From Clonostachys chloroleuca (Eukaryota > Ascomycota > Sordariomycetes > Hypocreales > Bionectriaceae): a stretch of DNA of 64,000 nt. Made by a program: the position numbers and the translations under genes. The notes under the pieces are model-generated. The model searched no databases, was not told the DNA's origin, and worked only from the letters and a program-made list of their open reading frames with translations. Each line of letters begins with the position of its first letter. Position 1 is the stretch's first letter. The stretch is taken from assembly GCA_037952775.1 (NCBI GenBank), contig JBANAY010000001.1, positions 5,146,001 to 5,210,000 on the forward strand, read 5' to 3'. Of this stretch, positions 27,520 to 32,494 are shown one piece after another.

Positions 27520-30500
27520 CTAGCTCTGCCAAGTCACCCTCTTGTCTCTGAACAAAGTAACCATTCCCATTGGCAAAAGGCCTTGGTCCACGATGTTCAG
27601 CGCCCCAAATCGCTTCACAATGTCCGGCCCGTGCATCATGACCACCCACTTCCAGTAGGCATTCATGAAGCTCCAGTGCCCGGTGATGCCTCCCTGATAG
27701 GAGCCCGACTGCCTAAGTTGATCCAGCGCCGCCGACAACGAACCGATGTCCAGCCGAACGCTCGTCTCGGTCGGCTGCTTCATGAGCTGGCGGAACACGT
27801 TGTGAAGACGCGTAGCGGCCGAGTGGTGGTCGAACCTGAAGTAGGCCCGGTGGCGGACGTACTCGTCAAAGGACATGAACTCGTCCCGCTCGCGTGCCTC
27901 GGCGGGCACCCAGTCCGGGTCGTCGAGGGAGTAGCGCAGCGGCTTGACAGCGCCGCTGAGAAAACGCTCCCTGGCGCGCTCGTAGGCGTTGCGCTCGGCC
28001 TCCTCGAAGCTCTCGACGAGCTCGGCGGGGGACGAGATGACGTCCTCGCGGATCTGGAGTAGCGAGATGAAGGGCGACTGGAGGTTGAGCCCGCCGAGCT
28101 CCATCGGCCAGTACAGGTAGCCGTCGGGGACGTCGTCAATGCCGAAGCGCTGCGCGATGGCGCGCTTGAGGTGCTCGGCCACGCTGGCGGCGCGCCCGTG
28201 CTGCTCTCCTCCCACGCCGCCGCCATCCTCGGCCATGGAGGAGAAGATGAGGCGCTGGATGCGCTCCTGCGTGGACAGGATGCTGTCGACGTGCTCGCGG
28301 CCGAAGCAGTTGGCCGCCTTGGCGAAGTTGGTGGTGAAGAAGCGCCCCGCGTACGTGTTCCAGGCCTGCACGAAGTCGAGCACGCTCTTGCGCTTGCTGC
28401 TGAGCTGCTTCTGCAGCTCCGCGATGTGGGTGTCGACCATCTCCTGGTCGATCTCGAAACGCGCCGTCTGCGGCGAGAGGCGCAGGAAACCCCAGCGGAT
28501 GTCCCCCGCGGGCAGGGCCGGGTCGATCGGCAGCTTCTGCTTCTCGTCTCTGGACACGCGGACGGTGCCCGTCTTGGCCAGGTTGATCTCGGTGCCCGTG
28601 ACCTCAGCGAACTCCTCCACGGCCTTCCAGGCCTTTGCCGCCATTGCGTGATCCCGGGACCAAAACCAGAAGTCGTCGTGGATGCGCCACAGGTTCGTCC
28701 CGCACGTGAGGCGGTTGATGGCGAAGTCGAGGCAGAAGAGCGTCGTCTCCCCAAAGATGTCGCTGAGCGTGTGGGACGCAGGCACTCCTCGACGACGCTT
28801 CCGCGCGGGCGTCGATTCGTCATCCTCGGCGAACCTGAGGGGCGCCTCGAGGAAGTTGCGGAAGAAGTCGAGCCACGCGGGGGATACACCGAGGAACTTG
28901 AGGACGACGAGCACTGTCTGGTGCGGCAGCAGCGAGTTCCAGCTCTCGAAGACGGAGTGGAAGGCCGTCAGCTCGCCGTACAGTCGCCTGTTGATGGTGA
29001 TCTCGGTCGCTAGGAGATGGAGGAGCTGCTGCTTGAGCGCCATGGGGCTGAGGCGATCTCCGGTGTCGACACGACGGCATCCTCTGCCTCCTCCTCCTCG
29101 TACTCCTCGTCTGAGTAATCAATCAGGTTCTCGGCATGCACGCCCCCTGTGCTGGGAGCCGACCTCCGAGCTGCCTTGCTGGCGAGCTGCCTGCGTGGCG
29201 CCGCTCCGCCGGTCGACTTTCTAGCTGTCTGCTTCGCGCGGACACCTACCTTGCGCTTCTGGCCTAGGGTCTGAGCGGGGACAGACGTCACCTGCTCGTA
29301 CTCGGCTTCCTCCTCCCCGTCCTCCGTGGTTGTGATCTGCTGCTCGTAGTCCATGAGGTTCACCAGGAAGTAGCGTATGGAGTGCACCTTGCTGCGCACC
29401 TCATCCAGGCAGGGCTCGTCTTGCAGCGGACCGAGATAGTAGCCAAGCTTCCTCTTGTCCTCTCTTGGGATCATATCGCGCGCGGATAGCCAGGTGCCCT
29501 CGACCGTGCGGAGCGAATTGAGGGCGCTCTTGAAGAAGACACTCCACTTGATGCCGATGTAGTGGAGGAAGATGGCCTGGAGCAGGTCCTCCTGCATCGT
29601 GATGTTGAACACGCCGCTGATCTTGCGGTTCATCTCGACCTGCACGGGGCCGTCGGAGCTCCAGGTCCACGAGCTCAGGGCACCCAGACGCATGTTGAGC
29701 ACGTCGGCGATCTCGCTTAGGATGATGTTGTTGTTCTCAAAGTCCTTGAGCACCTCGCGCTTCTCGTCCGAGAGCAGATCGGAGGCGTAAAGGCTCTGGA
29801 TGACCCACTTCAGAGACGTGACGTTGAACTGGTTCGGTGCCGAGAGCCTCATCTCGAAGGACTGCACGGACTCCCTGAGCTGCGTGAGAGCCTTCTGCAG
29901 GCCCTTCTTGGACTTGTCGCCGTCGTGGAAGACGCGTTTCAGGTACGCCTCCAGAGAGTCCTCATCTACTTCAGCAGGCTCGAACACCATCTCCTCCCAC
30001 TCCATCCTCGACTCAAGCTTCTTGCCGTTGTCGACGACCTCGTACGCTTCATCCATGGTGACATCATCACTACCAGCCGACTCCTCCTCCTTCTTCCCAC
30101 CTGACAGCCACTCCGTGACAAGCTGCCCGTACAGCGAGGCGTACTGGAACTTGAGCGATTGCACGTCCAGGTGGCGGAGGAGGGACTGCTCCCAGGTATC
30201 CAGCATGGTGCCGGACACGGAGGGGTCGTACTTGACCTGCTCTAGGAAGCGGTCCAGGTTCTGCAGCTCCGTTTCGAGCAGTTTATGCTTAGTCTGCTCC
30301 ATAACGACCTTGCCAGCCTTGTCAAGCTTGATGGAGAAGCATTCCTTAACGCCATCGCAGAGCAGAGAGAGGCGGCGGGTGGGGTCGCTCTCGGCGCGGA
30401 CGACCTCGAGCAGGGATGCCTTGGCTTCCTCGAAGCTGCTGCGCCTCTTGGAGAGCTCGTCGAGCTTGGTGTTGGTAATGCCCTGAAGGGTCTCGGAGAA

Positions 30501-30521
30501 TACGCTGCCGGAGGTGGCCAT
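27520..30521 (-). CDS. rvt: rvt-type reverse transcriptase-related cellular gene (two overlapping ORFs)
   Basis: ORF A (30521-29010, 503 residues) starts at ATG 30521 with a helical, coiled-coil-like region ([13 protein letters not shown]). It ends in a histone H3-like stretch and an acidic tail. ORF B (29043-27520, 507 residues) has [21 protein letters not shown] and then R-I-H-D-D-F-W-F-W at residues 120-128, the x-D-D motif C of reverse transcriptases in the form used by fungal rvt genes. Together they match the roughly 1000-residue length of rvt proteins, single-copy non-mobile RT genes (Gladyshev and Arkhipova). The ORFs overlap by 34 nt in a -1 relation; a missing base in the C4 run (plus strand 29044-29047) would fuse them. 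I see no motif A aspartate in the F-H-S-V-F-E-S-W segment. Coding G+C is higher than in its neighbours. Confidence 0.75.
29139..29240 (-). other. Histone H3 N-terminal tail-like segment inside the rvt-like protein
   Basis: Residues 428-461 of ORF A align with H3 residues 2-35 without gaps, 30 of 34 identical. Differences are T3A, K14A, K18R and K27R. Retained blocks include [18 protein letters not shown] and S-A-P-S-T-G-G-V. The S22/S31 form is the fungal rather than the animal H3 version. After it come H-A-E and an acidic tract, not the H3 core. Confidence 0.9.
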
Positions 30522-31000: not shown

Positions 31001-32494
31001 TTAGTTAACCCCAATGCTCTTCTCGATCAAGGCCCAGGTCTGGGCGGTGAAAGTCCCATGTAGCCAAACATCTCCACGGTGATCCTTACCAGTCGTGATC
31101 AGGTAATTCCGGTTCGTCCACGCCGGCTTGACAGTAAAAGCATGATATAAAGCCGGACTGCCCAGGGGGTTTACCCTCTGCTGGCCTGTTTGACCTTGCT
31201 TCTCGACGGCTGGCCCGAACTGCGCAACAGTGAAGTGCTTGGCTGCCGCCCAATTCGTTGTGATGTACAGAGTGCTCTCTGGCTTTGTGTGCATGGGAGC
31301 AGCATTGTCACCCTTGTCCCACTGCACCTTCTTGGTTCGCAGAGCAGCAAGAACTTGCGCCGGGGTTGTCTGCCTCATCAATTCCTTGCGGATATTCCAC
31401 GCGATGCTCCCGACGGATGCGTTGGCCTCCTCGGCGGACAGGAGGGTGAAGTTGTTCAGCACCATGTTCTCAACGTGAGTATCATCATGGCTGATTATCC
31501 CCGGCAGTCTTTTCCGGCAGTCAAATGGCAGACACATGGTGAGAGAGCTGGGCTTCGACTGTGATCGGGCCAAGTTACTCAGCCAGAGCGCGAGGATGGC
31601 ATCGAACTCGCTGATCCACGGCTCCGGACCGCCTGCTCCCTGCTGCTCCCTCTTGGCCTCATCAAGTGTCTCCGCACGTAGCTTTTGCACAAACTCCTTG
31701 GGGAGGTGTACGACACGCGATTCCATCTTATTCCAGTACATGTCCCAGAGCAGGCTCCGGGCAAAGGAAACCATACTGAGGCCGGATAGTCGCGAGTCAG
31801 CAATGACGCTTTCCTCTTGCTGCGCGGCGTCTGAGCTGGCGGCTTCATAGAGAATGTCGCGCCCAACCGACGAGACAGGCGGCACCTTGTCTTCCTGACC
31901 GGCCAGCACAAGGGACCAGGCTTTGACAAGAAATCCTACACCGTTGGCGTCCATCAGATTATGCGGCCACGTCAAAGAGACAAGTGTGGCATCGCTGAAG
32001 GAAACGATGCGCAGTGAGAGCATCGGCTCATCCCGGGCGAGGAGATCCTGGAGCGTTTGCGGCTGGTCTCGTCGAAAGACTAGTGGTCCCAACTCCTCCG
32101 ACGCCGGATGGAAAGAGGGACGATTCGTCGGCTTGGGGAACTTGTCTGCTAGGGCATGTTCCTCAAGCTTCATATTGAACACCTCGTGTGAGAAGGCAAC
32201 CGCAGGTCTTTGGCTGGTGTAGGGAGTAGGAACATGAATCTGCAGCTTGCGCAAGCCGGCGACTCGTCTAAAGCGGCCACCGAGCTTCCTCCAGTCGCCG
32301 ATGGCGAGTAAACGATTGAGGGAAGAGTGTAAATTGATGGGGTCGAGGACATCATTGAATTGCCATATAGAGGCCATGATGAGAGGTTCGAAGATTTGCG
32401 TGTTATCGTGGAAGTTTGTCTGGTAGACCTGATCGCTCTCGATGAGAGGCACAGGGCTCTTGCTTCCACTGAATAATGAACTGATCCACGCCAT
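31001..32494 (-). CDS. BAHD-type acyltransferase (transferase family PF02458)
   Basis: A single exon of 497 residues from ATG 32494; the frame is open three codons further up but only from a TTG. The catalytic H-x-x-x-D is seen as H-N-L-M-D (His178, Asp182) after a S-L-T-W-P strand, where the family places it. The second family signature, D-F-G-W-G near the C-terminus, is degenerate here: V-A-Q-F-G-P-A after T-T-N-W. These enzymes move acyl groups from acyl-CoA to alcohols or amines, often in fungal secondary metabolism (trichothecene 3-O-acetyltransferase type). The substrate cannot be told. No biosynthetic core gene is adjacent. Cytosolic, with no signal peptide. Confidence 0.85.
   Translation of the reverse strand: MAWISSLFSGSKSPVPLIESDQVYQTNFHDNTQIFEPLIMASIWQFNDVLDPINLHSSLNRLLAIGDWRKLGGRFRRVAGLRKLQIHVPTPYTSQRPAVAFSHEVFNMKLEEHALADKFPKPTNRPSFHPASEELGPLVFRRDQPQTLQDLLARDEPMLSLRIVSFSDATLVSLTWPHNLMDANGVGFLVKAWSLVLAGQEDKVPPVSSVGRDILYEAASSDAAQQEESVIADSRLSGLSMVSFARSLLWDMYWNKMESRVVHLPKEFVQKLRAETLDEAKREQQGAGGPEPWISEFDAILALWLSNLARSQSKPSSLTMCLPFDCRKRLPGIISHDDTHVENMVLNNFTLLSAEEANASVGSIAWNIRKELMRQTTPAQVLAALRTKKVQWDKGDNAAPMHTKPESTLYITTNWAAAKHFTVAQFGPAVEKQGQTGQQRVNPLGSPALYHAFTVKPAWTNRNYLITTGKDHRGDVWLHGTFTAQTWALIEKSIGVN

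Follow-up and report, generated by a model that had tools for sequence, protein, structure and literature searches.

A histone H3/H4 tail-like loop in a reverse transcriptase-related protein of Clonostachys chloroleuca and its fungal relatives

The locus and its histone-like segment

We analysed a 64,000-nucleotide stretch of the genome of the fungus Clonostachys chloroleuca (contig JBANAY010000001.1, positions 5,146,001 to 5,210,000; the window, referred to throughout at its full length), which carries on its minus strand a gene related to reverse transcriptases (RTs). The gene appears as two open reading frames (ORFs) in different frames. The first encodes a helical N-terminal region and the first part of the RT, followed by a loop that is predicted to be disordered, and within this loop 34 consecutive residues match the tail of histone H3 without a gap, differing from it only by T3A, K14A, K18R and K27R. 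A histidine follows directly, in the place of K36. ORF translation bears out this match as it had been described in an initial annotation made from the sequence alone. That annotation had also noted an acidic stretch and then an RT half behind the segment; both are present, but the RT half lies in another frame.

The likeness is strong by genome-wide standards. A six-frame search of the 59.4-Mb assembly with the H3 tail listed five matches, the best of which was the window locus (E 8.9e-13), with either exon of the intron-split H3 gene scoring below it. H3 likeness reached z 29 against 500 shuffles in P0001, an orthologue from C. chloroleuca with two residues in the segment different from those of the window. 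Because of this value and the counts above z 5 among orthologous loops with their controls (see below), a chance origin of the H3 likeness is excluded by the comparisons made here. The histone fold itself did not follow the segment: a query with the H3 fold gave no match at the locus, where the acidic tract and the RT stand instead.

Orthologues P0001, P0002 and P0003 all read through the stretch in which the window changes frame, and P0001 (C. chloroleuca, 1000 aa, 97% identical) is continuous across the region. Because P0001 reads straight through, the window assembly probably carries a one-base frame difference there (Table 1). The break may represent a mistake in the assembly, a mutation of the strain or, with lower probability, an intron. 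An intron between the two ORFs, for which several GT..AG pairs would keep the frame, was considered and rejected, since this stretch is coding in P0001. A separate donor-like sequence, AAG/GTAGGT, lies directly before the histone-like segment, and excision of the segment in frame, through an AG end at 29082 (168 nt) or 29058 (192 nt), is conceivable but unproven.

Table 1. Features of the RT-related gene and its surroundings (positions in the window)
Feature	Position	Strand	Basis
N-terminal half of the RT-related gene	29010..30521	minus	ORF, 503 aa; spanned by orthologues; AlphaFold model of P0001
H3-tail mimic, 34 aa	29139..29240	minus	gapless against H3 positions 2-35; 30/34 identical
KRK basic cluster resembling a nuclear localization signal, directly before the mimic	29250..29258	minus	sequence
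Acidic tract, 19 aa, after the mimic	29076..29132	minus	sequence; similar acidic stretches in orthologous loops
RT half, motifs A-D and C-terminal part	27520..29043	minus	ORF; RT fold of P0001
Val replacing the catalytic Asp of motif A	28951..28953	minus	orthologue/paralogue alignment
Motif C Asp-Asp (HDDFWFW), retained	28672..28677	minus	alignment
Donor-like AAG/GTAGGT, directly before the mimic	first base 29249	minus	sequence
Probable one-base frame difference relative to P0001	29060..29080	minus	ORFs; orthologue read-through
Transferase-family gene (PF02458) upstream of the RT-related gene	31004-32491	minus	Pfam

The RT scaffold

Homologues were collected by scoring 7999 candidates, among which 787 were retained; the best 120 of these were listed and aligned, and the loop was cut out of each. 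An AlphaFold model of P0001, computed from an alignment of 60 orthologues and four paralogues, had a mean predicted local distance difference test score (pLDDT) of 77 and a predicted template-modelling score (pTM) of 0.74. The model contains an RT core, the fold expected of rvt-type and other RT-related cellular genes, with structural matches to R2, LINE-1, a group II RT and the large spliceosome protein. Residues 406-488, between the first RT part and motif A, are predicted with pLDDT <50 and include the histone-like segment at 428-461. Profile databases identify the family poorly: Pfam assigned no domain to three orthologues and gave only sub-threshold vWF_A and RVT_1 matches for the window ORFs, and NCBIfam gave only a sub-threshold group II RT match for P0001. 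No relative appeared in the bacterial and archaeal genomes scanned with the paralogue alignment.

The catalytic aspartate of motif A is absent from all 120 orthologues (Val in 103; otherwise M, T, A, S, G, I or C) and present in all four aligned paralogues of the same genome, and for this reason the mimic-bearing branch is probably not an ordinary polymerase. In motif C, the first aspartate is kept in 112 of the orthologues and the second in 84, with asparagine in 34. The initial annotation called the gene rvt and described such genes as single-copy. We use the name provisionally; the copy number does not hold in this genome, which has five further rvt-like places (L009, L010, L011, L012 and L013; E 3.6e-38 to 1.5e-96). 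Four are gene places and L013 runs into masked sequence; one place adds a second piece. By eye, the ORFs of these paralogues have no tail likeness. The gene is best explained as a catalytically degenerate cellular branch of the RT-related, rvt-type proteins, judging from these alignments.

H3 and H4 tails in orthologous loops

Likeness to histone tails was scored for each of the 120 loops as z against 500 shuffles of that loop, with a threshold of z>5. H3 exceeded the threshold in 67 loops and H4 in 47, compared with none for H2A or H2B, two for reversed H3 and four for reversed H4. An exact 10-residue word of H3 occurred in 38 loops, and no loop had one from the reversed tails. An artefact of composition was rejected on the reversed-tail, H2A and H2B controls, and the likeness is thus specific, among the histone tails compared, to H3 and H4. 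One or the other tail was found in 87 loops and both in 27, H3 preceding H4 in 26 of the latter. There are also hybrids, in which H4-like AKRHRKI runs into an H3-like stretch of 16 residues.

The carriers are mostly Sordariomycetes, named examples including Clonostachys, Fusarium, Diaporthe and Verticillium, with one named carrier in the Leotiomycetes (Bisporella, P0075) and one in the Dothideomycetes (Lepidopterella, P0096). Close copies of H3 are found in Clonostachys (P0002, 32/34), in Bisporella (P0075, 26/29) and in Cosmosporella (P0006), where 33 of 34 aligned positions agree, though with an insertion. The loop is at least 71 aa long in 115 of the 120 proteins, and a basic cluster, loosely defined, lies somewhere in 83 of the loops. 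In the window gene the loop, predicted to be unstructured, combines a KRK cluster, the H3-tail mimic and an acidic tract; in relatives the mimic is of the H3 and/or H4 tail, and this likeness occurs in several classes of Pezizomycotina. On a tree built without the loop, H3 likeness required 25 changes, H4 likeness 21, and likeness to either tail 17; as read from this tree, turnover of the trait is fast, yet it is retained or reappears. Replacement of histone tails by GLFG motifs in some loops was also considered; the signal was weak (5/120 against 0.82 expected, with a maximum of 5 among 500 shuffles as well) and the idea was dropped.

Origin of the segment

The segment was compared with the H3 gene of the same genome, using the window copy only. 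At residues that match, 9 of 30 codons are identical, compared with 8.2 expected from local codon usage (P 0.44, 2000 draws), and at the DNA level 70 of 102 nt agree. An intron interrupts the H3 gene at codon 25, and the segment has none there. Recent capture of H3 is ruled out by this usage-level codon agreement and the nucleotide divergence. The amino acids have been kept over synonymous sites that appear saturated, and for that reason the comparison speaks for selection or for evolution in place towards the tail. The initial annotation had favoured mimicry over a fresh insertion, and had named near-identity of its DNA to the local H3 gene, together with absence of the segment from all orthologues, as findings that would speak against it; the DNA proved divergent, tail-like loops occur in many orthologues, and its preference is supported.

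Conservation within the loop

In 33 sister pairs, 672 of 1044 mimic positions were identical (64%), compared with 688 of 1311 in the rest of the loop (52%) and an average of 86% identity outside the loop. Among 463 more distant pairs of H3-positive sequences, sharing 12 or more mimic positions and <55% identical outside the loop, identity averaged 63% in the mimic and 54% in the rest, with the mimic above the rest in 320. This excess is suggestive, as the pairs share members and were selected for likeness to H3.

Retention differed by residue, lysines being lost more often than arginines in the aligned tail-like loops. H3-positive loops kept Arg in 189/213 cases, Lys in 193/335 and other residues in 939/1236, and H4-positive loops kept Arg in 100/113, Lys in 61/167 and others in 309/403. 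The best-kept positions were R17, A21, R26 and P30 of H3 and R17, H18, R19 and G14 of H4. The H3 arginines R17 and R26 were kept in 62/66 and 59/63 loops, compared with 27/60 for K14, 24/63 for K18 and 36/63 for K27; in H4, R17 and R19 were kept in 47/47, K12 in only 1/39, and K16 was Met in 23/47. The lysines that are often replaced, several of which we take to be acetylation sites, become R, Q, M or A, while the flanking Arg, Ala, Gly and Pro stay. The selective loss of K14, K18 and K27 noted in the window is therefore a trend across the loops, but it is not fixed, all three being kept in P0002 (C. byssicola). A special role proposed for K4 and K9 fared worse: with K4 kept in 31/39 and K9 in 26/49, neither is singled out and other positions are better kept.

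Other H3-like proteins in the genome

Two further proteins, both unrelated to the RT-related protein, start H3-like. One is a VIT/vWA protein of 949 aa (L015:626-3472, G000:C3, minus strand) that begins MARTKQTARAST, the exact H3 N-terminus for eight residues, and that also holds two more stretches resembling H3 and, near the C-terminus, the H4-like GKGVGVGGALRHRRI. Among its 120 listed relatives, one of them identical, the part after residue 600 exceeded z 5 for H3 in 13 and for H4 in 8, compared with 2 for H2A, none for H2B or reversed H3, and 1 for reversed H4. The named tail-like relatives are from Clonostachys, Trichoderma and Cylindrodendrum, those of Trichoderma holding a 27-residue stretch of the histone-like kind. 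PF13634, presumably the nucleoporin FG repeats, matched 19 of the 120 (for example P0161, P0167, P0168, P0232 and P0240), and the disordered linkers of these relatives apparently contain FG repeats or histone-like tails, or both, as in P0232 and P0240. The other protein (L004:481-1578, minus strand, 365 aa) has no Pfam match, and its start, MVRTKQVARKSTGGRAPRKQL, resembles H3 from the first residues on; a paralogue in L023 is 50% identical, begins MPRAKQGSRKSLGGG and has two in-frame stops, being either broken or split by an intron. In a search with the mimic region, the 120 matches listed out of 1396 all had histone Pfam domains, and no other family was among them.

Discussion

Together, these observations suggest that the RT-fold protein, itself catalytically degenerate, presents an H3/H4 mimic poor in lysine, and that this mimic either attaches to nuclear factors binding H3 and H4 tails or competes for them, a reading to which we assign a probability of roughly 0.5. 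The loop would be translated, and a nuclear protein that normally binds H3/H4 tails would recognise it; the loop would then either dock the RT scaffold on that protein or compete with the real histones. Most likely, it seems, the mimic would act as a pseudosubstrate, or as a ligand that escapes acetylation, for an enzyme, remodeller or import/chaperone factor that binds tails, because several of the lysines at acetylation sites are often replaced while Arg, Ala, Gly and Pro beside them stay. The KRK cluster may act as a nuclear localization signal.

Several observations weigh against such a role. The loop is fast-evolving, as judged from sister-pair identities of 64% and 52% against 86% outside it, and the mimic is the better conserved part in only 24 of the 33 pairs. 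H3 K23, an acetylation site, is kept in 50/64 loops, which the pseudosubstrate idea leaves unexplained; the loops are in general poorer in lysine (K/(K+R) 0.40, compared with 0.50 elsewhere in the protein), and the position counts span related sequences without correction for kinship. Neither tail reaches z>5 in 33 of the 120 loops, which represent only the best of 787 matches and leave distant orthologues outside the sample, and replacement of H3 by H4 on the tree is not significant (sign test, median p 0.45). In five proteins (P0017, P0038, P0041, P0050 and P0055) the loop is only 38-40 aa long and lacks the mimic, whether through a gene-model artefact, exitron-like splicing or true deletion. 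Finally, the window copy carries its frame break between the mimic and the RT half, and in P0004 (Bionectria ochroleuca) the adjacent frame seems to be used across the mimic stretch.

The loop might instead serve only as a histone-type nuclear localization signal, imported by a receptor of the Kap123 type that binds both tails. According to one study, Kap123 binds them by two lysine pockets, which take K14 and K23 of H3, and K16 with R17 and R19 of H4 (PMC5677370). Import of this kind would fit the pairing of H3 with H4, the retention of K23 and of H4 R17 and R19 (47/47), and the KRK cluster ahead of the mimic; we nevertheless consider it unlikely as the sole function. The window has Ala at K14, so that the lysine pair expected of a Kap123-type H3 signal is missing there, and K14 is kept in only 27/60 loops, and K14A weakens Kap123 binding in that study (PMC5677370); H4 K16 is Met in 23/47; and H3 15-22, mostly well kept except K18, is a stretch that Kap123 is there described as not reading specifically (PMC5677370). 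It is also rather improbable that the loop is a functionless relic, now decaying, of a single ancient capture of fused H3-H4 tails. Fast evolution, patchy presence (25 H3 and 21 H4 changes on the tree) and the frame irregularities of the Clonostachys/Bionectria copies agree with decay, but close copies persist far apart (P0002, P0075, P0006), distant pairs favour the mimic in 320/463, and amino acids have been retained where codons have not.

Coincidental resemblance of a nucleic-acid-binding basic patch of the RT would account for an Arg-rich segment beside a polymerase fold in which arginines are the best-kept residue class, but of the reversed tails, equal in composition, H3 passes z>5 in just 2 and H4 in just 4 of the 120 loops, and the shared 10-residue words (38/120 for H3) have no counterpart in them; we find such coincidence improbable. 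The presence of AAG/GTAGGT before the mimic, and of the five short loops, would suit an intron or exitron spliced out of most transcripts. That seems highly improbable given loops of at least 71 aa in 115 of 120 proteins, amino acids retained over diverged codons, and a donor that is absent from P0002 and P0003 as judged from protein. High protein identity to H3 is what a recent gene-fragment insertion or an assembly chimera would produce, but with 70/102 nt and 9/30 codons identical this is already contradicted for the window species, and the occurrence of tail-like loops at this site across many species leaves it next to no probability.

The docking or competing mimic can be extended to a bolder, more doubtful proposal. 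Pezizomycotina might have made a dead polymerase into an endogenous chromatin decoy, an acetylation-poor H3/H4 pseudosubstrate rebuilt repeatedly by selection, H4-H3 hybrids included, that inhibits or titrates tail enzymes or import factors; mimicry arising independently in the VIT/vWA family and a third family would then point to a shared antagonist or partner.

If the mimic is real in function, the loops would constitute a natural series of tail variants filtered by selection across fungal classes, with up to 34 residues of H3, and the series would show which tail positions the partner needs. The mimic also offers a testable function for an RT-related branch that lacks the catalytic aspartate.

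Comparison with known systems

Histone mimicry is already known from viruses, as in influenza NS1, and from some chromatin proteins, endogenous mimics being present in G9a/EHMT and in ISWI AutoN. One trait of an endogenous mimic, tail likeness beyond chance in a non-histone protein, is found here as well. The literature searched, from which subscription papers were mostly absent, contained no description of H3/H4-tail mimicry of this kind. The stretches in BAZ2B, G9a/EHMT and ISWI AutoN are, we believe, short, and they lie in chromatin proteins, whereas an RT-derived protein here carries up to 34 residues of H3, with H4 in relatives. Prp8, the RT-like scaffold of the spliceosome, belongs to a different protein family, and we know of no histone mimic in it.

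BAZ2B is comparable in that its histone-like stretch is host-encoded and lies in a largely disordered linker, said to modulate histone binding (PMC5663869). The delta antigen of hepatitis delta virus (HDV) is likewise reported as a non-histone protein with a histone-like peptide (PMC6972770), but it is viral, whereas the present gene is a fungal cellular one. Cellular RT-related genes of the rvt kind occur in fungi, bacteria and rotifers. As two meeting reports describe them, rvt genes are cellular or domesticated, stress-responsive and single-copy, with terminal-transferase or non-templated activity and a need for intact catalytic residues (PMC3520738, PMC10680173). The mimic-bearing protein resembles them, by fold and description, as an RT-fold cellular fungal protein of mostly ~960-1000 aa; unlike the active, single-copy RVT of those reports, its branch has lost the motif A aspartate, and its genome holds further copies.
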